Shown here: positions 7,445 to 20,028 of the stretch, in pieces
How the letters are laid out: each line of letters begins with the position of its first letter
How positions within the stretch are numbered: position 1 is the first letter of the stretch
Virus record (IMG/VR): IMGVR_UViG_3300006929_000176
Location: 1-20,028 of that record
DNA from: a virus
DNA length: 20,028 nt
Strand: one strand, 5' to 3'
Notes under the pieces: model-generated
Database searches by the model: none
What the model was told of the DNA's origin: nothing
What the model saw: only the letters and a program-made list of their open reading frames with translations
Position numbers and translations under genes: made by a program

Positions 7445-7834
7445 ATGGAAGTGGCAAACGCACAACAAATAGAAAATGTTATACAGAGTAACATAAGTGT
7501 TTTGTTGGGCGAATACGGATGGATGTTTTTAGCGGCGTTGGTAATACTTTTTTTTAAAACAACAATAGAATCAGTATTAGCAGGGCTTCTTGTTTTTGTT
7601 GGCAATGATTATAATAATGATGACATTATTATTTTGGATGGTAGACCAGGCAGAATAGTTAGAGTATCAATGTGGAAGACAACTTTTTACCTTTATACTA
7701 TTAAGAACGACAACAGCGGCAAAAAGTTTGTTGCTGGAGGTACTAAATTAATTGTGGAGAATGATAAGTTAAAAGATTTGAAGCTAGAAAAGCCATTAGG
7801 TAATTTTGATTTAGAAACGATGTTTAGTGATTAG
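7445..7834 (+). CDS. miniature MscS-like mechanosensitive channel domain protein
   Basis: Probable inner-membrane protein of 129 residues. One hydrophobic helix (about 25-55, WMFLAALVILFF then ESVLAGLLVFV) corresponds to the pore-lining last helix of MscS. It is followed by the MscS beta domain: DDIIILDGRPGRIVRVSMWKT (about 59-79) resembles the family pattern 'GD.V.l.g..G.V..I....T', and GGTKLIVENDKLKDLKLEKPL (about 98-118) resembles 'dG....iPN..l....i.N.s..P'. MscS proteins are normally much longer (E. coli MscS 286 residues) with three helices and a C-terminal domain; here the first two helices and the C-terminal vestibule are absent. If it oligomerises it could form or modify a pore in the host membrane. 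It has its own ribosome-binding site and possibly its own promoter. Confidence 0.7.
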   Translation: MEVANAQQIENVIQSNISVLLGEYGWMFLAALVILFFKTTIESVLAGLLVFVGNDYNNDDIIILDGRPGRIVRVSMWKTTFYLYTIKNDNSGKKFVAGGTKLIVENDKLKDLKLEKPLGNFDLETMFSD

Positions 7835-10557: not shown

Positions 10558-11178
10558 ATGACGAAGTTTATTGCAAAATGTGCAATTTTGTTTGCACTGC
10601 TTGTTAGTGTAACGCCAACCTTTGGTGAAACTGAAGTAGGAGTTGATCTTTTTAGTCGCCACGTATGGAGAGGTACAGCTGGATCGGATAACTTATCTGT
10701 TCAACCTACTGTTAGTGTTCCTTTTGATTCTAATATTGGTACAACCAGTATAGAATTATGGGGCCAAACCCCAATTACTACCGGTGCAACAGAGATTGAT
10801 ATTACTGTTTCGCAGGAAATTGGTGAGTATGCCTCTATTGGTGTTACTTCTTATTACTATGACGGCCCTTTTCTTGATGCCGACAGCCACGATATTGAAG
10901 TAGGTCTTTCTACTTCGTATGCCGGAGTTGATTTATTTGTAGGTAGATTCGTTAATGGCGATGCTGTTAAGGATGATACATACATAGAGCTTGGCTACAC
11001 GTTGGATGAGTTCAACTTGTTCGTTGGTGCTGGTGATGGTGGCTATGTTGCTGAAGGTAGTGACTTTGCCCTTGTCAATGTTGGCGTAGGTGTTGAGACA
11101 GAAGCCGGTTATGGTGCTTCATTCATCTATAATCCAGATACAGAGACACCTTACTTAATCATAAGTAAGTCTTGGTAG
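10558..11178 (+). CDS. outer-membrane beta-barrel protein with signal peptide (Gcw_chp-like)
   Basis: Predicted secreted outer-membrane protein of 206 residues. Residues 1-23 form a signal peptide (MTKFIAKC, hydrophobic AILFALLVSV, then TPTFG before a probable cut). The mature part is rich in alternating-residue strands, Gly, Thr and aromatics, with many acidic turns. The start of the mature protein, VGVDLFSRHVWRG..GSDNLSVQP, fits the proteobacterial Gcw_chp family (TIGR02001) pattern 'vs.dyv.RG...s...pa.q'. The last residue is Trp preceded by IISKS, consistent with the aromatic C-terminal signal read by the BAM machinery. It has the strongest ribosome-binding site in the window (AAAAGGAGG). 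A virus-encoded porin-like protein may alter host permeability or block receptors for other phages. Family membership is moderately sure; export to the outer membrane is a strong inference. Confidence 0.78.
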   Translation: MTKFIAKCAILFALLVSVTPTFGETEVGVDLFSRHVWRGTAGSDNLSVQPTVSVPFDSNIGTTSIELWGQTPITTGATEIDITVSQEIGEYASIGVTSYYYDGPFLDADSHDIEVGLSTSYAGVDLFVGRFVNGDAVKDDTYIELGYTLDEFNLFVGAGDGGYVAEGSDFALVNVGVGVETEAGYGASFIYNPDTETPYLIISKSW

Positions 11179-11872: not shown

Positions 11873-12814
11873 GTGAATAAGATAGATATTATTTCGCAAC
11901 ATCTTGGAAACTATAAAACAATGGCCGGTGCAAATCATTATTTTGAATGCCCATCTTGCCATCATCATAATCACAAAATGACTATTAATATAGAGAAGTC
12001 TGTATTTAATTGTTGGCATTGTGGGATCAAAGGTAAAAGTTTTTTATATCTATTGAAATTAGCTGGCGCTACAATACTTCCCCAATATAAAAAGATTTTT
12101 AGTGAAGGTGTAAAAAAGAATATAGAAGATATAGATAATCTTTTTGGTACAGAGATAAAAGAAAAAACGTCTTCTAAATTAATATTGCCCAAGAGGTATG
12201 AAAATCTTTTTCGTAATATAGAAAAAGCTTTCTATAAGCCAGCCGTAGAGTATCTGCAAAAGAGAGGGGTGACCAAAGAAGATATTCTAAAATATGATAT
12301 TCATTATAGCGTCAGTGATCAGAGAATATTATTTCCATCTTATGATAGAGAGCATGGTTTAAATTATTATGTGGCAAGAACTATTCAGCCACATGAAAGT
12401 TACAAATATAAAAATGCGGCGGCCTCCAAAAGAGATGTTATATTCAATGAGCATTTAGTTGAATGGGATAAACCTTTGTATATTGTAGAGGGAATATTTG
12501 ATGCTATATTATCTCGTAAGAACGCTGTGCCGATTCTTGGAAGCAATGTAGGTAGTGGGTCATTATTGTTTAAAAGACTCTTAGAAAATAACACACACGT
12601 TATTATAGCTTTAGACGCAGACGCTAAAAAGAAAATGTTTAAAATGATTAACGAATTAGTTAAGTATAACATTCCCGTTACGTATGTGGATTGGAAGAGT
12701 GAAGAAAGAGATATAGCAGAGATGGGGTCCGATAAATTTGAAGAGATAGTAACAAGTGGAAGTGTAAAAAGTTTTACGTTTGAAGATCAAATTAAAGAAA
12801 GGTTATTTAGTTAA
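11873..12814 (+). CDS. DNA primase (zinc-finger plus TOPRIM)
   Basis: DnaG-type primase of 313 residues that should make RNA primers at the phage fork. A zinc-binding domain contributes Cys26, Cys29, Cys47 and Cys50 (CPSC and CWHC), with histidines between them (SCHHHNH). A middle region (about 120-200) carries DQRILFPSYD and VARTIQ, as in the N-terminal part of primase cores. The TOPRIM domain has Glu206 in LYIVEGIFDAI and the acidic pair Asp248 and Asp250 in IIALDADA. It is about half the length of bacterial DnaG and has no C-terminal helicase-binding or helicase domain, so a separate helicase must lie outside the window or come from the host. GTG 11873 is chosen for its ribosome-binding site GAAGGA (11859-11864). 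It overlaps the next gene by one base. Confidence 0.88.
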   Translation: MNKIDIISQHLGNYKTMAGANHYFECPSCHHHNHKMTINIEKSVFNCWHCGIKGKSFLYLLKLAGATILPQYKKIFSEGVKKNIEDIDNLFGTEIKEKTSSKLILPKRYENLFRNIEKAFYKPAVEYLQKRGVTKEDILKYDIHYSVSDQRILFPSYDREHGLNYYVARTIQPHESYKYKNAAASKRDVIFNEHLVEWDKPLYIVEGIFDAILSRKNAVPILGSNVGSGSLLFKRLLENNTHVIIALDADAKKKMFKMINELVKYNIPVTYVDWKSEERDIAEMGSDKFEEIVTSGSVKSFTFEDQIKERLFS

Positions 12815-15800
12815 TGCTAATAGCACATCTAAGTGATATACATATTCGGAAAACAAGAAGGCATGAAGAATACAAAATAGTTTTAGATAATTTGGTTGCT
12901 AGTTTAGAGTCACTCCCAATTGATAGAATTGTTTTAGCAGGTGATTTACTGCATAACAAAACAGATTTATCGCCTGAAGCGGTGCAGCTAGCAAGTGAGT
13001 ATTTGGATAGGCTAAGTGATATTGTGCCAGTTGATTTAATACTTGGGAACCATGATTGTGTTATTAATCAACATAACAGATTAGATAGCTTATCTCCTAT
13101 TGTATCTTTATTAAAGAACAATGGTAAGCCTATAAATCTGTATGAAGAAAGTGGTTTGTATGAGGTTACAGATGGATTGGTGTATGGTATTTTTGCACAA
13201 CAAGATACTAAACATCAGTGGCCTATTGATTTTGATAGACAAGATGGGAAGAACTATGTAGCACTTTATCATGGTGCAATTGATGGTAGTCGCACAAGTG
13301 CAAGCCATCGTATTGAAAGCGACAATGATAAGAGTATATTTCGCAATTATGATTTTGGTATGTTGGGAGATATTCATTCACGGCAACCAATGATATTAGA
13401 TGATAATGGAAAGATTAAGGTTGCATATGCAGGTTCTTTGATTCAACAGAACTTTGGTGAAGAGATAGAGAAAGGTTTTCTTCTTTGGGATTTGGATCAA
13501 AAGAAGTGTATGTTTATAGAGATTGCAAATGATTGGGGGTTTAAAACTTTTAGGTTAGATCAAGACGCTATTGATAATATAGAAAACATTGAATTTGAAC
13601 TACCTACCAAGCCTTATGTACGCATTCTTCTCAACACTGATGATTACAATGTTACTACTGCCAAACACGTAGAATCAGTTATAAAAAATAAGTATAAGCC
13701 AGAGGGTTTATTTATTGAGGTTGATGTTCAATCCACAGTTGATGACCTATCTCTGTCAGGCAAGGCAGAAAATGTTACTGATTTAAAAACTCAACAAGAT
13801 TTACTTAAACAATATTTTGCAAAGCGCCCCACCATTTCTGAGCAAGAAGTAAATGAAATAATTGCCATCCATAAAGATTTTTATGACACTTGCACTACTG
13901 AAGATTATGATACATACAAAGGTAGAAAGTGGGTGATACATAAAGTTTTGTTTGATAATGTGTTCTCTTATGGACCTAACAACATTATTAACTTTGATAA
14001 GATGAAGGGGTTAACAGGTATATTTTCAGCCAACGCTTCTGGTAAGTCTAGTATTCTATATACTATTTTACAAGGATTTTTCAATAGTAGCAACAGAACT
14101 GGTGGTAGAAATGTAGCTGATGTTATTCATAAGAATCAGAACGAAGGCTCTATTGAGATAGAGTTTTCGGTAGATAATCAAAAGTATGTAATTGAAAGAG
14201 TCTTCAAGAGGAATAAAAGAAATCCAAATCGTGCAAACAATAAAGTAGAACTTTATCAAATTGTGCATGGTGATAAGGTTAACATTAGTGGTGAAGCTAA
14301 TGTTAGAGAAACCGAAGCAGCAATACGCAATCTGCTTGGTTCATATGAAGAACACACTATGACTACGTTTAGTCAACAGTTTGATATTACACGATTTATT
14401 GATCATGGTCAAACAAATAGAAAAGATTTGCTAGCTCGTTTCCTCGGCCTAAATGTTATTGATGATTTACAAAAGTCTATAAAAGATGAGACAGCCTCTA
14501 TTCGTACCATTCTAAAAGAGTATCAACAAAATGATTATCCATCTATTCTTAGTCAGTATGAAGAAAGGTTGAAGAAAACTGCTGACAAGATAAAAGTATT
14601 GAATAAAGAGAGACAAGGTTTAGAGGAAGATGTTTCTAAGAATGAAAAAAGCAGAGATGTATTAGTTAAGTCATTGCATCCTACGTATGATGGGCTAAGG
14701 TCAATAAATTCTATTGAAAAAGATATAAATAAATCTAATAAGTCAATAGAAAAGTTAGAAGAAAGTTGGGAGACTAATCAGAAGTTAAAAGTTGATTTGA
14801 TGTCTCGCCATCAACATAGGGTAGATGAGTTGTTTAAGATAAATGAAAAAGGTGTTTTTGAAGATAGAAAAAACATTTACTATAATACAGTTGAAAGTCA
14901 TAATAAGCTTAAATCAGAGTATGATTTAAAAAGTCAGATGGTTAATACTTATGAAAAACAATCGTCTATTCTTAATAAGCATGATTGGTTTGAGACAAAT
15001 GAAACTTGCAAAAAATGTTCATTTCTTACTGGCGCTTTCGTGGCAAGGGGGCAGTTAGTAGAAGAAAGAAAGTGGGTGGAGAATGCTTTAGCAGAGAAGA
15101 AGCGCTTGGGCGAAGAGCTTAACAAGCATTCTGATTTTCCGGAAGATGAAAAATTATATGAAAAATATCAAAAAGAAGTTGGTGAACTAAAGTCTAAATT
15201 AGAAAACTTAGAAATTGTTTTTGAAAATATAAAACTTCAGTTAGAGTTAGAAAGAAATAAGTTGTCATTTTATAAAGATGAAGAGAAGACTTACAAGGAG
15301 AACGAAAACTCTATTAAACATAATGTAGCTGTAGATGTAAAGATAAAAAATGTTGATGGTAAAATAGCTGACATAGACATTAAACTTCGCGATAACAATA
15401 ATAACCATACTAAAGAAAATAGTAATCTTGGTGCTTTAAGTCAAAAGATTATGGATCTTGATGGTAATATTGAAGTGCTAAAAGAAATAGAAAAAAAGTA
15501 TAGTACTCATCAATTATTGATGGATGCGTTTGGTAGCGATGGCATACCTCTAATGATTATGAATAAGGCTGTACCCTTGATTAACAATGAAATACGAAAG
15601 GTTTTGTCTAACATAACAAACTTTGAAGTTTCTCTTGAAGTTGATACCGAAGCTCACGACTTGAGTATATTTATTGATGACGGCACCTCGCGCCGTAGAG
15701 TTGAGTTGGGGTCTGGTATGGAGAAAACTTTGACAGCTTTAACAATCCGTTCTGCATTATCAAATATTAGTCTTTTACCCACTTGCAACCTCTTTGTAAT

Positions 15801-15987
15801 TGATGAAGGCTTTGGCACCCTTGACTCTGAAAACATTAATCATATGAATCAATTGTTGTTATACCTCAAAAGTAAGTTTGAGAATGTTCTTATAATTTCT
15901 CACATTGAAAGTATGCAAGATATTACTAACAATGTTCTAAGTATTCATAAGAATGAGAGGGGGTACAGCAGCATCAAAATTTTATAG
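12814..15987 (+). CDS. single-chain Mre11-Rad50 (SbcD-SbcC) fusion nuclease-ATPase
   Basis: A protein of 1057 residues joining two recombination proteins that are normally encoded separately (SbcD/SbcC, Mre11/Rad50, T4 gp47/gp46). The N-terminal Mre11-like phosphoesterase carries LSDIHI (Asp8, His10), GDLLHN (Asp44), GNHD (78-81), YHGAIDG and GDIHSR, the full metal-ligand set. A linker leads to the Rad50-like ATPase at about 385: Walker A SANASGKSS (about 405-413), a long coiled coil with a zinc hook CKKC (Cys732, Cys735), signature LGSGMEK (965-971) and Walker B FVIDEGFG (Asp997, Glu998). All key parts are present in one uninterrupted frame. It would process DNA ends for recombination-dependent replication. 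The start overlaps the primase stop (TAATG), so the two are translationally coupled. Confidence 0.93.
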   Translation: MLIAHLSDIHIRKTRRHEEYKIVLDNLVASLESLPIDRIVLAGDLLHNKTDLSPEAVQLASEYLDRLSDIVPVDLILGNHDCVINQHNRLDSLSPIVSLLKNNGKPINLYEESGLYEVTDGLVYGIFAQQDTKHQWPIDFDRQDGKNYVALYHGAIDGSRTSASHRIESDNDKSIFRNYDFGMLGDIHSRQPMILDDNGKIKVAYAGSLIQQNFGEEIEKGFLLWDLDQKKCMFIEIANDWGFKTFRLDQDAIDNIENIEFELPTKPYVRILLNTDDYNVTTAKHVESVIKNKYKPEGLFIEVDVQSTVDDLSLSGKAENVTDLKTQQDLLKQYFAKRPTISEQEVNEIIAIHKDFYDTCTTEDYDTYKGRKWVIHKVLFDNVFSYGPNNIINFDKMKGLTGIFSANASGKSSILYTILQGFFNSSNRTGGRNVADVIHKNQNEGSIEIEFSVDNQKYVIERVFKRNKRNPNRANNKVELYQIVHGDKVNISGEANVRETEAAIRNLLGSYEEHTMTTFSQQFDITRFIDHGQTNRKDLLARFLGLNVIDDLQKSIKDETASIRTILKEYQQNDYPSILSQYEERLKKTADKIKVLNKERQGLEEDVSKNEKSRDVLVKSLHPTYDGLRSINSIEKDINKSNKSIEKLEESWETNQKLKVDLMSRHQHRVDELFKINEKGVFEDRKNIYYNTVESHNKLKSEYDLKSQMVNTYEKQSSILNKHDWFETNETCKKCSFLTGAFVARGQLVEERKWVENALAEKKRLGEELNKHSDFPEDEKLYEKYQKEVGELKSKLENLEIVFENIKLQLELERNKLSFYKDEEKTYKENENSIKHNVAVDVKIKNVDGKIADIDIKLRDNNNNHTKENSNLGALSQKIMDLDGNIEVLKEIEKKYSTHQLLMDAFGSDGIPLMIMNKAVPLINNEIRKVLSNITNFEVSLEVDTEAHDLSIFIDDGTSRRRVELGSGMEKTLTALTIRSALSNISLLPTCNLFVIDEGFGTLDSENINHMNQLLLYLKSKFENVLIISHIESMQDITNNVLSIHKNERGYSSIKIL

Positions 15988-15997
15988 GAGAGTTAAT

Positions 15998-16696
15998 TTG
16001 GCATCTACTATTCCCAAATTTGTAAGGCCCATTGAGTTTCAAACAGATAGCCAAAAGGAATATTATAATCTTATAGGAGATAATAAGTCACAAATAGTTT
16101 TATGTCATGGTATGGCAGGTACAGGAAAAACATATATAAGTTTACAAAAAGCAGTTGAAGACATTTTGAAGAGGGGGAATAGCTACTCAAAATTATGTAT
16201 AATAAATCCTACAGTTGATGTAGGTAAAGAAGATGCGCTAGGTTTTTTGCCTGGCACTATAATGGATAAAATAACTCTATATAATGAAAGTGCTATATGG
16301 ATACTTAATCAGATTATCGGAAAGGATCAAACTAAAAAGTTTATTGAAGATGGTAAGATAGAGTTTCGTGTAATAAATCATATGCGTGGGTTGAATTTAG
16401 ACCGAATGTATATTATATTAGATGAGGCACAAAACATATCGCCATTACAAATAAAAACTTTATTGACTAGAATACATGATAGTAGCAAACTCTTAATACA
16501 AGGTGACTTAAGTCAATGTGATAAGTATGGTGATAATTATACGAAGAGTGGGTTTTATGATATATGGCAGCGTCTTAAAAGTATTGACGGTGTGGAGTAT
16601 ATGAAGTTTAGTAAAGAAGATTGTGTAAGAAGTGGAATTGTAGCAAAGATATTGCAGACATATAATTATAATGGAGACAGCATAGAATTAGAATAG
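15998..16696 (+). CDS. phoH: PhoH-like P-loop ATPase
   Basis: PhoH-family protein of 232 residues. I prefer TTG 15998 as start, because AGGAGA (15986-15991) lies six bases upstream and this places it just after the preceding stop; an in-frame ATG at 15953 would overlap the previous gene without a ribosome-binding site. Walker A GMAGTGKT (38-45), the PhoH block INPTVDVGKEDALGFLPGT (about 69-87), Walker B IILDEAQN (139-146) and sensor-like LLIQGDLSQCD (165-175) are all present. PhoH proteins are ATPases, possibly RNA helicases, and are common in marine phages, where their role is unsettled. It lies downstream of the recombination nuclease and is probably co-transcribed. Confidence 0.92.
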   Translation: MASTIPKFVRPIEFQTDSQKEYYNLIGDNKSQIVLCHGMAGTGKTYISLQKAVEDILKRGNSYSKLCIINPTVDVGKEDALGFLPGTIMDKITLYNESAIWILNQIIGKDQTKKFIEDGKIEFRVINHMRGLNLDRMYIILDEAQNISPLQIKTLLTRIHDSSKLLIQGDLSQCDKYGDNYTKSGFYDIWQRLKSIDGVEYMKFSKEDCVRSGIVAKILQTYNYNGDSIELE

Positions 16697-16708
16697 AGGA
16701 GAAGTGTT

Positions 16709-17176
16709 ATGATAAAACGAATAAGTGGATTTTTAGGTATGTTTTTGGTGATGGCTCTAGCGATGGAAAACCCATTAGTTTTTGTTAATGTACCATCATT
16801 AGTTATTGTTTTAGGTTTAACTTTTTTTGCTTTACTAGCGTCTGGAAATAAGATAGTGTCGTTACTATCTTTACTTACACGCAAGGATGTTTTGCCCGAT
16901 GAACTTCACGATGCCTCCTATACTGTTTTTATGGCCGGTCGTTATAGCATGAGTGCTGGTGTAGTGGGGGTTTTGATTGGTTTGGTGTTGATGCTGGCGA
17001 ATCTGGATGATCCAGCAAAGATTGGTCCGGCAATGGCTGTTTGTTTGTTAACCGCTCTTTACGGAACAATTCTTAAGTATTTTATTTATGCACCTATTCT
17101 TCATCGTATTGATGCAAAAATATCAGAATCACATAAACAAGATGATACAGAAATTTCTGATGAGGAGCAAGAATGA
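16709..17176 (+). CDS. shortened MotA/PomA-like proton/sodium channel protein
   Basis: Inner-membrane protein of 155 residues with four predicted helices (about 4-20, 31-47, 82-98, 106-130). FVNVPSLVIVLGLTFFALLAS (about 25-45) matches the second helix of MotA/PomA, and GVLIGLVLMLANLDDPAKIGPAMAVCLLTALYGTIL (about 87-122, pieces shown in shortened form elsewhere) matches helices 3 and 4 and the DDP..IGPA loop of the sodium-type stator PomA. The large cytoplasmic loop between helices 2 and 3, which drives the flagellar rotor in MotA, is cut to about 30 residues. The conserved Pro of helix 3 appears to be Met81. No MotB/PomB partner is nearby. It is joined to the holin gene by an ATGA overlap, suggesting a lysis, membrane-energy or motility-blocking role rather than torque generation. 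Confidence 0.82.
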   Translation: MIKRISGFLGMFLVMALAMENPLVFVNVPSLVIVLGLTFFALLASGNKIVSLLSLLTRKDVLPDELHDASYTVFMAGRYSMSAGVVGVLIGLVLMLANLDDPAKIGPAMAVCLLTALYGTILKYFIYAPILHRIDAKISESHKQDDTEISDEEQE

Positions 17177-17577
17177 TAGGTGTATTAACCGGATTAGCTG
17201 GTAAGCTTTTACCCGAAGCTGGTAAAATTTTAGATGAGTTAGTAACGAGTGGTGAAGAGAAAGCTGCTGCTAAACAAAAACTAGAAGAACTATTCGTAAG
17301 GGCCGAAGCAGATGCACAGAAGGAAGTAACTGAAAGATGGAACGCAGACATGAAAAGCGGCAATTGGTTAGCGGCCAACATAAGGCCGATAACCCTTATA
17401 TTTCTTACTTCGGTGTTTGCTATCCTATCTGTTACAGATGGTAACATTGGAGAGTTTTCCATTGGCGATGCTTACAAACCTATCTATCAAACCCTATTAC
17501 TTACCGTCTATGGTGCTTACTTTGCTGGTAGAAGTATTGAGAAGATAAAAGGTAAGAGCGGTACAGAGAAGAGTTAA
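17173..17577 (+). CDS. holin, GTA-type 3TM family
   Basis: Holin of 134 residues, expected to form lesions in the inner membrane at lysis. An N-terminal amphipathic segment (1-25, with GVLTGLAGKLLPEAGKI) and a charged helix (26-58, EEKAAAKQKLEEL) precede WNADMKSGNWLAANIRP (56-72), the typical lead-in for this family. Two hydrophobic helices follow at about 73-88 and 104-119 (YQTLLLTVYGAYFAGR), then a basic tail. The order and the 'W....RP' block match PF11351-type holins found in gene transfer agents and marine phages. It shares ATGA with the MotA-like gene and its TAATGA stop with the following secreted-protein gene, so the three are translated together. Confidence 0.82.
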   Translation: MIGVLTGLAGKLLPEAGKILDELVTSGEEKAAAKQKLEELFVRAEADAQKEVTERWNADMKSGNWLAANIRPITLIFLTSVFAILSVTDGNIGEFSIGDAYKPIYQTLLLTVYGAYFAGRSIEKIKGKSGTEKS

Positions 17578-18251
17578 TGAAGAAAATTTTAGTAATTGCA
17601 ATATTATTACTAACTACTATGTCGGCTCATGGTGACCATGATGAAGTTAAAACCATCATACCTATAATGTATGAAGGATGGAATTTGCTTGGTTTTTCTT
17701 TGCAACCCTATGTGGTTAATGATAGTATTGTTAGTAGTGGATATGATGCTATAATGTATGCTGCTTTAAATGATAGAGTTTGGTATTTTCATTCAACTGG
17801 ATATGCAATAGCAGATAGTTTTGTGATAGGTGAGGGTTTTTGGCTGAAGTCTTTTGTAGATGCACCTCTTATACAACAAGGAAACGCATCGGAAAAAAGA
17901 ATACATATTTTATATGAAGGGTGGAATATTGTTTCACCTTTAGAAGAAGAAATTCATCCATTGTTGTTAGTGTACTCTCACCAAACTATTGACTCCATTT
18001 GGGGGTGGGATCGTCATAACTATCAGTATAAGGATATGCTAGCAAGACAAGAACATCTAATGCCAGGATATGGTTATTGGATGTATACAACACATGATGA
18101 TACTTTATTTTATGATGGCTTTAGTAATCAAACACCACCGCAAGCCCCTGCAAAAATTGTCGCGACACAAAGTCAAAGACAACCGCCTGACGCACCAGTG
18201 CATGTAGGAACGAAAACTTGGGGTGATGTGAAAAAAACTTTAATTGAATAA
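17577..18251 (+). CDS. secreted protein with two GWN...GxGYW repeats
   Basis: Exported protein of 224 residues with a clear signal peptide (MKKILVIAILLLTTMSAHG, 1-19). The mature part contains two copies of one module: EGWNLLGF at 33-40 leading to GEGFWLKS at 85-92, and EGWNIVSP at 114-121 leading to PGYGYWMY at 163-170. This GWN...GKGYW-type module is known from bacterial extracellular and cell-surface proteins, usually as a stalk or accessory domain; I know no enzymatic role. The DNA of the two GWN regions is also alike (TATGAAGGATGGAAT against TATGAAGGGTGGAAT), so the duplication may be fairly recent. The C-terminal 45 residues are Pro/Gln-rich and probably disordered. Its place right after the holin suggests an envelope role in lysis, or a decoy at the host surface. 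Confidence 0.75.
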   Translation: MKKILVIAILLLTTMSAHGDHDEVKTIIPIMYEGWNLLGFSLQPYVVNDSIVSSGYDAIMYAALNDRVWYFHSTGYAIADSFVIGEGFWLKSFVDAPLIQQGNASEKRIHILYEGWNIVSPLEEEIHPLLLVYSHQTIDSIWGWDRHNYQYKDMLARQEHLMPGYGYWMYTTHDDTLFYDGFSNQTPPQAPAKIVATQSQRQPPDAPVHVGTKTWGDVKKTLIE

Positions 18252-19180: not shown

Positions 19181-19634
19181 GACAGGTTTTATAGCAAGCA
19201 CGTTTGACATTTATCATCCTGGTTATGCTATGATGCTGAATGAATGTAAAGACAATTGTAACTACTTAGTGGTAGGGTTGCATGAGAATCCAGTATGGGA
19301 AAGACAAGATAAAAATAGTCCCATAATGAGTTTAAATGAGAGGTTTCTTGTATTAAAGTCTATATCATATGTAGATGAAATTGCACCATATAAGAATGAA
19401 AGCGAGCTTTTAAATTTATTGTATTTCTATAAACCTGATATTCGCTTCTTAGGCTCAGATTATGATACACCAGAAATGAAAAAGAAAATAACTGGAAGAT
19501 TTTTGTGTGATGAAATTCACTATATAAATAGGTTTCACGATTATAGTTCATCGGGTATAAGAACAAAAATTTATGAAGCAGAAAAATATAAAGTAGATAC
19601 TGAGACATATATAAGAGAAGAGGCTATTGTATGA
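19170..19634 (+). CDS. cytidylyltransferase-like nucleotidyltransferase
   Basis: Rossmann-type nucleotidyltransferase of 154 residues (glycerol-3-phosphate cytidylyltransferase / RfaE-C-like). Start ATG 19170 is chosen from three consecutive ATGs because AAAGGA (19158-19163) is then correctly spaced. GFIASTFDIYHPGYAMML (6-23) is the nucleotide-binding segment; the usual HxGH reads HPGY, so the second His is Tyr19. YLVVGLHENP (32-41) is the next strand, NERFLVL (56-62) the helix, and YSSSGIRTK (125-133) corresponds to the ISSTxIR motif. The missing His could lower or change activity. Such enzymes activate small alcohols or sugars with CTP or ATP; in a phage it might modify lipids, surface sugars or nucleotides. 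The stop overlaps the next start (GTATGATG). Confidence 0.75.
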   Translation: MQNKTGFIASTFDIYHPGYAMMLNECKDNCNYLVVGLHENPVWERQDKNSPIMSLNERFLVLKSISYVDEIAPYKNESELLNLLYFYKPDIRFLGSDYDTPEMKKKITGRFLCDEIHYINRFHDYSSSGIRTKIYEAEKYKVDTETYIREEAIV

Positions 19635-20028
19635 TGAACTTTTTTACCGAAAGTAAAGATATAGATATTGTGAGAGATGACGAGCGCAACATAGAAGTGC
19701 TGAGATACTCTTCTGGAGTAGATAGTACATTAGGTATATTGTGCGAGAATGGACCACAAGGTAGAGAGTTTCTTGCTTATACTTTAGAAGATGAGTTTAG
19801 AGAAGAGAAGGTAAGTGCTGAAACAAGAATACCAGAAGGCACCTATGATGTTAAGCTTCGCACAGAAGGTGGTTTTCATAATCGTTATATAGACAAGTTT
19901 GGTGCTGATTTCCATAAGGGAATGTTGCACGTCCAGGATGTGCCTGGCTTTGAATATATTCTTATTCACACCGGTAACAATGACGAACATACAATGGGTT
20001 GTTTATTAGTTGCGGATAGCTCTACTCA
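19631..20028 (+). CDS. DUF5675 family protein (cut by window end)
   Basis: Partial gene, 132 residues visible and no stop before the window ends. ATG 19631 (or 19634, ATGATG) overlaps the preceding stop and has GAAGAGG at 19617-19623. TLEDEFREEKVSAETRIPEGTY (51-72, key Glu-Thr-Arg-Ile-Pro) and MLHVQDVPGFEYILIHTGN (98-116), then HTMGCLLV (120-127), are the DUF5675 blocks. The end block, His113, Gly-Asn and Gly-Cys124, recalls the His...GC arrangement of L,D-transpeptidases, so a peptidoglycan-related activity is possible but unproven. With a holin 2 kb upstream it could take part in lysis. I see no other endolysin in the window. Confidence 0.85.
   Translation, partial: MMNFFTESKDIDIVRDDERNIEVLRYSSGVDSTLGILCENGPQGREFLAYTLEDEFREEKVSAETRIPEGTYDVKLRTEGGFHNRYIDKFGADFHKGMLHVQDVPGFEYILIHTGNNDEHTMGCLLVADSST

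Follow-up and report, generated by a model that had tools for sequence, protein, structure and literature searches.

The window analysed here is the whole 20,028-nucleotide stretch of a 20 kb virus record, and the genes that we describe lie on its plus strand, among them those for a PolIII-type DNA polymerase, a RuvC-like resolvase, a DnaG-like primase, an SbcCD-like nuclease, PhoH and a ferredoxin. Two ORFs, positioned as in the preliminary description of this DNA, encode a loop-less MotA/PomA-like membrane protein of 155 residues with four membrane helices (16709–17176, +) and a predicted holin of 134 residues (17173–17577, +). The stop codon of the first overlaps the start of the second in an ATGA (17173–17176, +), again as described earlier. 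A GAGGAG stretch that putatively resembles a ribosome-binding site precedes the MotA-like start (16694–16708, +), and a second GAGGAG lies within the MotA-like gene just before the overlap. Directly after the holin is a gene for a predicted secreted protein of unknown family (17577–18251, +), conserved in L065, L013/L014 and L067 and without a match in Pfam or PHROG; it has an internal repeat-like pattern (EGWNLLGFSL and EGWNIVSPLE), and the protein is conserved in several members of the clade.

Two other window proteins were noted in passing. The 129-residue product of 7445–7834 has one membrane helix and resembles, by eye, a cut-down MscS mechanosensitive channel; its sole PDB match is MscS (E 0.59), it matches no Pfam channel model and it is conserved in L061 at 91%. 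The 206-residue product of 10558–11178 has a signal-peptide-like start and a β-barrel-like look, is conserved in the clade (45–80%) and has no match in Pfam, PHROG or NCBIfam; by these features it would suggest a Gram-negative host.

The product of 17173–17577 is a probable holin on the strength of its match to the ‘holin’ family phrog_3427 (1.8e-27), with the Pfam model GTA_holin_3TM scoring 18.4 bits, below its cut-off of 24.8. Its homologues lie directly after an M15 peptidase/endolysin gene in several phages, and one adjoins an annotated endolysin in Vibrio phage NC_055735. A candidate endolysin is present in the window as the start of a DUF5675 gene (19631–20028, +) cut by the window end, a whole copy of which (L002:8923–9456) matches PF18925 at 3e-26. 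DUF5675 (PF18925, phrog_1501) is a family of unknown function. Comparison of the ORF directly before the holin in L043, L044 and L046 with that in L045, L049 and L050 places DUF5675 in a slot where close relatives carry an M15-peptidase endolysin, and this exchange suggests that DUF5675 may itself be an endolysin. The preliminary description had assigned the pair to a lysis cassette, but the arrangement is less compact than this term suggests: replication genes lie upstream, and the candidate endolysin follows several genes downstream.

The 155-residue protein is homologous to the A subunit of the flagellar stator. The Pfam family PF01618 (MotA_ExbB) matches the window protein at 30.4 bits against a curated cut-off of 22.9, and the L003 and L015 proteins at 27.7 and 36.4 bits. 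The NCBIfam models of sodium-type PomA (6.3e-22) and MotP (4.2e-19) also match, both with scores far below those models' full-length cut-offs, and in the PDB a PomA chain matches (8bri, 2.1e-18). Judged by these profiles, the homology to stators is far above chance. The earlier proposal of a trimmed sodium-type stator A subunit adjoining a holin is thus borne out by the PomA/MotP profiles, the PomA structures and the holin profile, and the profile search that could have failed to find a MotA relation returned MotA and PomA.

The fold agrees with this assignment. Hydropathy delineates four hydrophobic segments (residues 1–19, 23–41, 81–99 and 104–122), and AlphaFold predicts helices at residues 2–18, 28–44, 63–97 and 102–154 (pLDDT 91.9). 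With 47 relatives in the alignment, the ten best fold matches of the model are all flagellar stator subunits (Z 12.1–15.9), the next match falling to 7.9. Because that alignment consists mostly of stators, the fold is tested with less bias by a model built only from the four phage sequences (pLDDT 70); this model matches PomA with a Z of 15.2 over 134 residues, and it has no significant match in a viral structure library.

These comparisons also bear on the idea that the protein targets the Tol-Pal or Ton energisers (TolQ/TolR and ExbB/ExbD), weakening the envelope before lysis. Such a role would be in keeping with a holin as neighbour and would be open to a phage whose host has no flagella; TolQ and ExbB belong to the same Pfam superfamily, PF01618, and give a weaker fold match (Z about 6–8). 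Sequence and fold are nevertheless clearly of the stator type, with PomA and MotP matches of 4e-19 to 6e-22, stator profiles scoring best and Z values of 12–16 against values below 8, and we consider this target improbable.

Of the features expected in a functional stator subunit, the stator fold with its four membrane helices is present according to hydropathy, the predicted model and the fold comparison. The large cytoplasmic loop carrying R88, E96 and D114 is absent: PomA residues ~50–114 (~65 residues) have no counterpart in the window protein. In PomA, R88, K89, E96 and D114 contact the rotor protein FliG, and R88, E96 and D114 are indispensable for motility (PMC10374538). P151 together with the ion-coordinating T158 and T186 is likewise not retained when the four phage proteins are compared, in PomA numbering, with 78 full-length stator relatives. 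P151, a proline in 78/78 full-length stators, is replaced by M, M, I and I; it corresponds to Met81 of the window protein, in agreement with the loss of the helix-3 proline previously proposed. T186 is replaced by A, A, V and V, and T158 reads V, V, T and T, each position being Thr in all 78 full-length proteins. In contrast to these losses, T185 is retained in 4/4 phage proteins (78/78 in full-length stators), as are the FVN.PS block, G154, G157, G161, Y188 and P199.

Mutational work on PomA gives this distribution a possible meaning. The substitutions T158A, T185A and T186A each abolish motility and ion transport, transport loss being read out as normal growth under conditions in which wild-type PomAB without its plug is inhibitory. 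T158A and T186A also abolish Na+ binding, and their loss of transport extends to plug-less PomAB; T185A affects formation of the PomA–PomB complex (PMC6677748). Evolution thus appears to have spared the residues linked to assembly and given up those linked to conduction and torque, a pattern drawn from four sequences that fall into two groups (the window phage with L003, and L015 with L016).

Of the functions previously suggested, a simple pre-holin ion leak is disfavoured by the same data because T186A and T158A abolish transport even in unplugged PomAB, and T186 is replaced in all four phage proteins and T158 in two. Another possible role is that of a mini-stator, which would pair with a B subunit, supplied by the host or by another part of the phage genome, to power something other than the turning of a flagellum. 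The protein does retain the whole membrane-spanning module of the 5:2 rotary motors, and it has a loop-less bacterial cousin that is not accompanied by a holin (L109, described below). Against this, the conduction residue T186 is replaced in all copies, and neither the MotB_plug nor the ExbD model matches in the eight phage records searched, the window among them, which are contigs that may be incomplete. No cognate B gene adjoins the MotA-like gene in any of its four contigs, and hydropathy of the plus-strand ORFs in these contigs reveals no obvious B-subunit candidate. With no B subunit found in the eight contigs, the protein would therefore need a host partner, a point in favour of the action on host stators considered next. 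We regard a mini-stator as the least likely of the functions considered.

Among the proposed functions, a dominant-negative one would best account for which residues are retained and which have gone. As a mechanism we favour, with a probability of roughly 40%, the disabling of host stators by a subunit that enters them but neither conducts ions nor engages the rotor. A phage lineage would have captured a PomA/MotP-type stator A subunit and stripped it of the rotor-contacting loop. Provided that the host has a flagellum and PomB, the protein, inserted into the inner membrane, would use helices 3 and 4 to join host PomA, to capture the membrane helix of PomB or both, and the resulting stators would neither pass ions nor grip FliG, bringing the flagellum to a stop. 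The phage might thereby save ion-motive force during infection and exclude phages that need a turning flagellum; phage chi, for example, is unable to infect when the flagella are paralysed (PMC9266447). The fuller scenario, in which an ion-dead and rotor-blind phage subunit, co-expressed with the holin, poisons host stators, stops swimming and shuts out flagellum-dependent phages, is a little more tentative than the mechanism at its core. Counting against this dominant-negative reading are the constant pairing with the holin, which a purely motility-related role does not predict, the small number of sequences, four in two groups, behind the residue pattern, and the possibly fragmentary state of all the phage contigs, in which a B subunit may have escaped the search.

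Relatives of the window phage were collected from IMG/VR with the holin and the SbcCD-like protein as baits. Three further phage contigs carry the MotA-like/holin pair, their MotA-like proteins being 47–58% identical. IMG/VR scans with the 155-residue protein, either by itself or in an alignment, gave these four phage contigs and no others, and tblastn searches of reference phage records with the window and L003 proteins gave no convincing relative. The MotA-like gene lies directly before the holin in 4/4 phage contigs that carry it, and no further copy was found when the window and the retrieved viral loci, other holin-bearing contigs included, were searched with a profile; the possibility that it occurs mainly away from holins, which would have spoken against the pairing, is thus not borne out in any phage carrier. 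Stop and start codons overlap at the junction in all four contigs, as ATGA in the window and as TAATG in the other three (L065, L066 and L067). We set aside the ATGA overlap as stand-alone evidence because overlaps are common in this genome (14/29 neighbouring pairs in the window).

The interval to the left of the holin is variable. Its conserved left border is a gene for an SbcCD-like fused nuclease/ATPase (12814–15987, +), assigned by resemblance and by distant SbcC-like phage matches, of which all clade members reaching that far have a similar copy in the same place. Between this gene and the holin, the window phage carries a PhoH-like ATPase gene (15953–16696, +; PF02562, 5e-54) as cargo together with the MotA-like gene; PhoH is absent from this interval in L003, L015 and L016. 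In L003 and L016 the MotA-like gene stands alone, in L015 it is accompanied by a gene for a small secreted-looking protein, L011/L012 have a ClpP-like gene and no MotA-like gene, and L013/L014 have nothing.

This arrangement is the basis of the main rival to the disabling of host stators, namely that the protein helps the holin. It would form an oligomer in the inner membrane, either of its own or mixed with the holin, and tune the time of holin triggering, as an accessory holin, an antiholin or a leak channel, with the gene overlap keeping the two products in proportion. The gene sits directly before the holin with overlapping stop and start in every carrier even though the other content of the interval changes, and both products are small membrane proteins. 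Weighing on the other side, the close relatives L011–L014 and other scanned contigs carry the holin without the MotA-like gene, so the holin does not depend on it; about half of the window gene pairs overlap anyway; the holin has a putative ribosome-binding-like site of its own; and replacing T186 or T158 stops transport by the known ion path. On balance we consider a holin helper unlikely, if still the strongest competitor.

The patchy distribution would also suit a partly decayed accessory gene, a host stator fragment acquired along with adjacent cargo and now drifting with no function of its own, in a slot otherwise occupied by PhoH, ClpP or nothing. The loss of ion residues and a dN/dS above that of the neighbouring genes would be in keeping with decay. 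The MotA-like gene is, however, under purifying selection: a Nei–Gojobori script gives a dN/dS of 0.33 for L015/L016 and of 0.28 for the window and L003, the latter with synonymous sites near saturation, values that point to a functional protein. The frame is moreover intact in four contigs, the protein has an invariant residue block and the gene is kept at one genomic location, and decay seems to us improbable.

In a phylogenetic tree, the four phage proteins group together (100/99), and a very long stem attaches them close to PomA of marine gammaproteobacteria, at a placement that has no usable support; the tree of SbcCD does not separate gain from loss of the MotA-like gene. Phages are not the only carriers of the trimmed architecture, since a Hydrogenedentota contig encodes a loop-less MotA-like protein of similar length (L109:3995–4471) in which the counterparts of P151 and T186 are replaced. 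It differs from the phage proteins in its bacterial contig, in its lack of a holin and in an identity of only about 36%. Because this holin-free protein has also lost P151 and T186, the loss pattern may mean something other than the disabling of host stators. The genes flanking it, named by eye, are tRNA-adenosine-deaminase-like and SurE-like, and a partial loop-less relative is found in another Hydrogenedentota genome (L154). Under strict limits, no loop-less relative was found in the classes of an Oceanospirillaceae MAG and a Rhodospirillales MAG or in the phylum Neomarinimicrobiota, and the only frame returned from the phylum to which a Desulfobacteraceae MAG belongs was full-length, at 257 residues; these sets held no positive control, so that the negative outcome carries little weight.

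A PomA query also matched reference phage records, of which the match in Microcystis phage MaAM05 was examined closely. We rejected it as a phage relative: this pomA is full-length and lies beside an OmpA-like gene, fliM, fabI and an acyl-CoA dehydrogenase gene, and looks bacterial. The stretch, deposited as phage (L005; MW495066.1, 100264–112542) and carrying murJ, fabI, fliM, pomA and an acyl-CoA dehydrogenase gene, is probably bacterial DNA.

Among known systems, flagellar stator A subunits are closest, with sodium-type PomA and MotP scoring best. The phage protein shares with PomA, MotP and MotA the four helices, the FVN.PS, GxxGxxxG, DP..IGP.MA, LLT, Y and P199 blocks and fold matches of Z 12–16; it differs in lacking the loop of ~65 residues and the C-terminal helices, in the replacement of P151 and T186 in all copies, and in being phage-borne beside a holin with no cognate B gene found. 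The phage family phrog_21194, of unknown function, matches helices 3–4 at 3e-7, although its model, with 295 positions, is as large as a whole stator subunit. The Zorya defence protein ZorA belongs to the same superfamily and matches the fold weakly (Z about 7). A long tail and the partner ZorB are characteristic of ZorA; the phage-carried protein lacks such a tail, and no ZorB-type partner is present in the contigs searched. If the phage protein does disable host stators, it would resemble in effect the phage product PIT4, which sets a precedent by inhibiting host swimming; PIT4 is unrelated to stators, and its targets are two-component kinases (PMC10714779). A search of openly available journal papers for a phage-borne or holin-linked MotA protein returned nothing relevant, and in the papers searched we found no description of a loop-less phage stator beside a holin, the stator superfamily itself being known.

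If the dominant-negative reading is correct, the flagellar motor's own stator would have been turned into a phage weapon, a compact and natural dominant-negative stator. It would then also provide a natural test of which residues serve stator assembly and which serve ion conduction and rotor contact, because evolution would here have separated the one set from the other.
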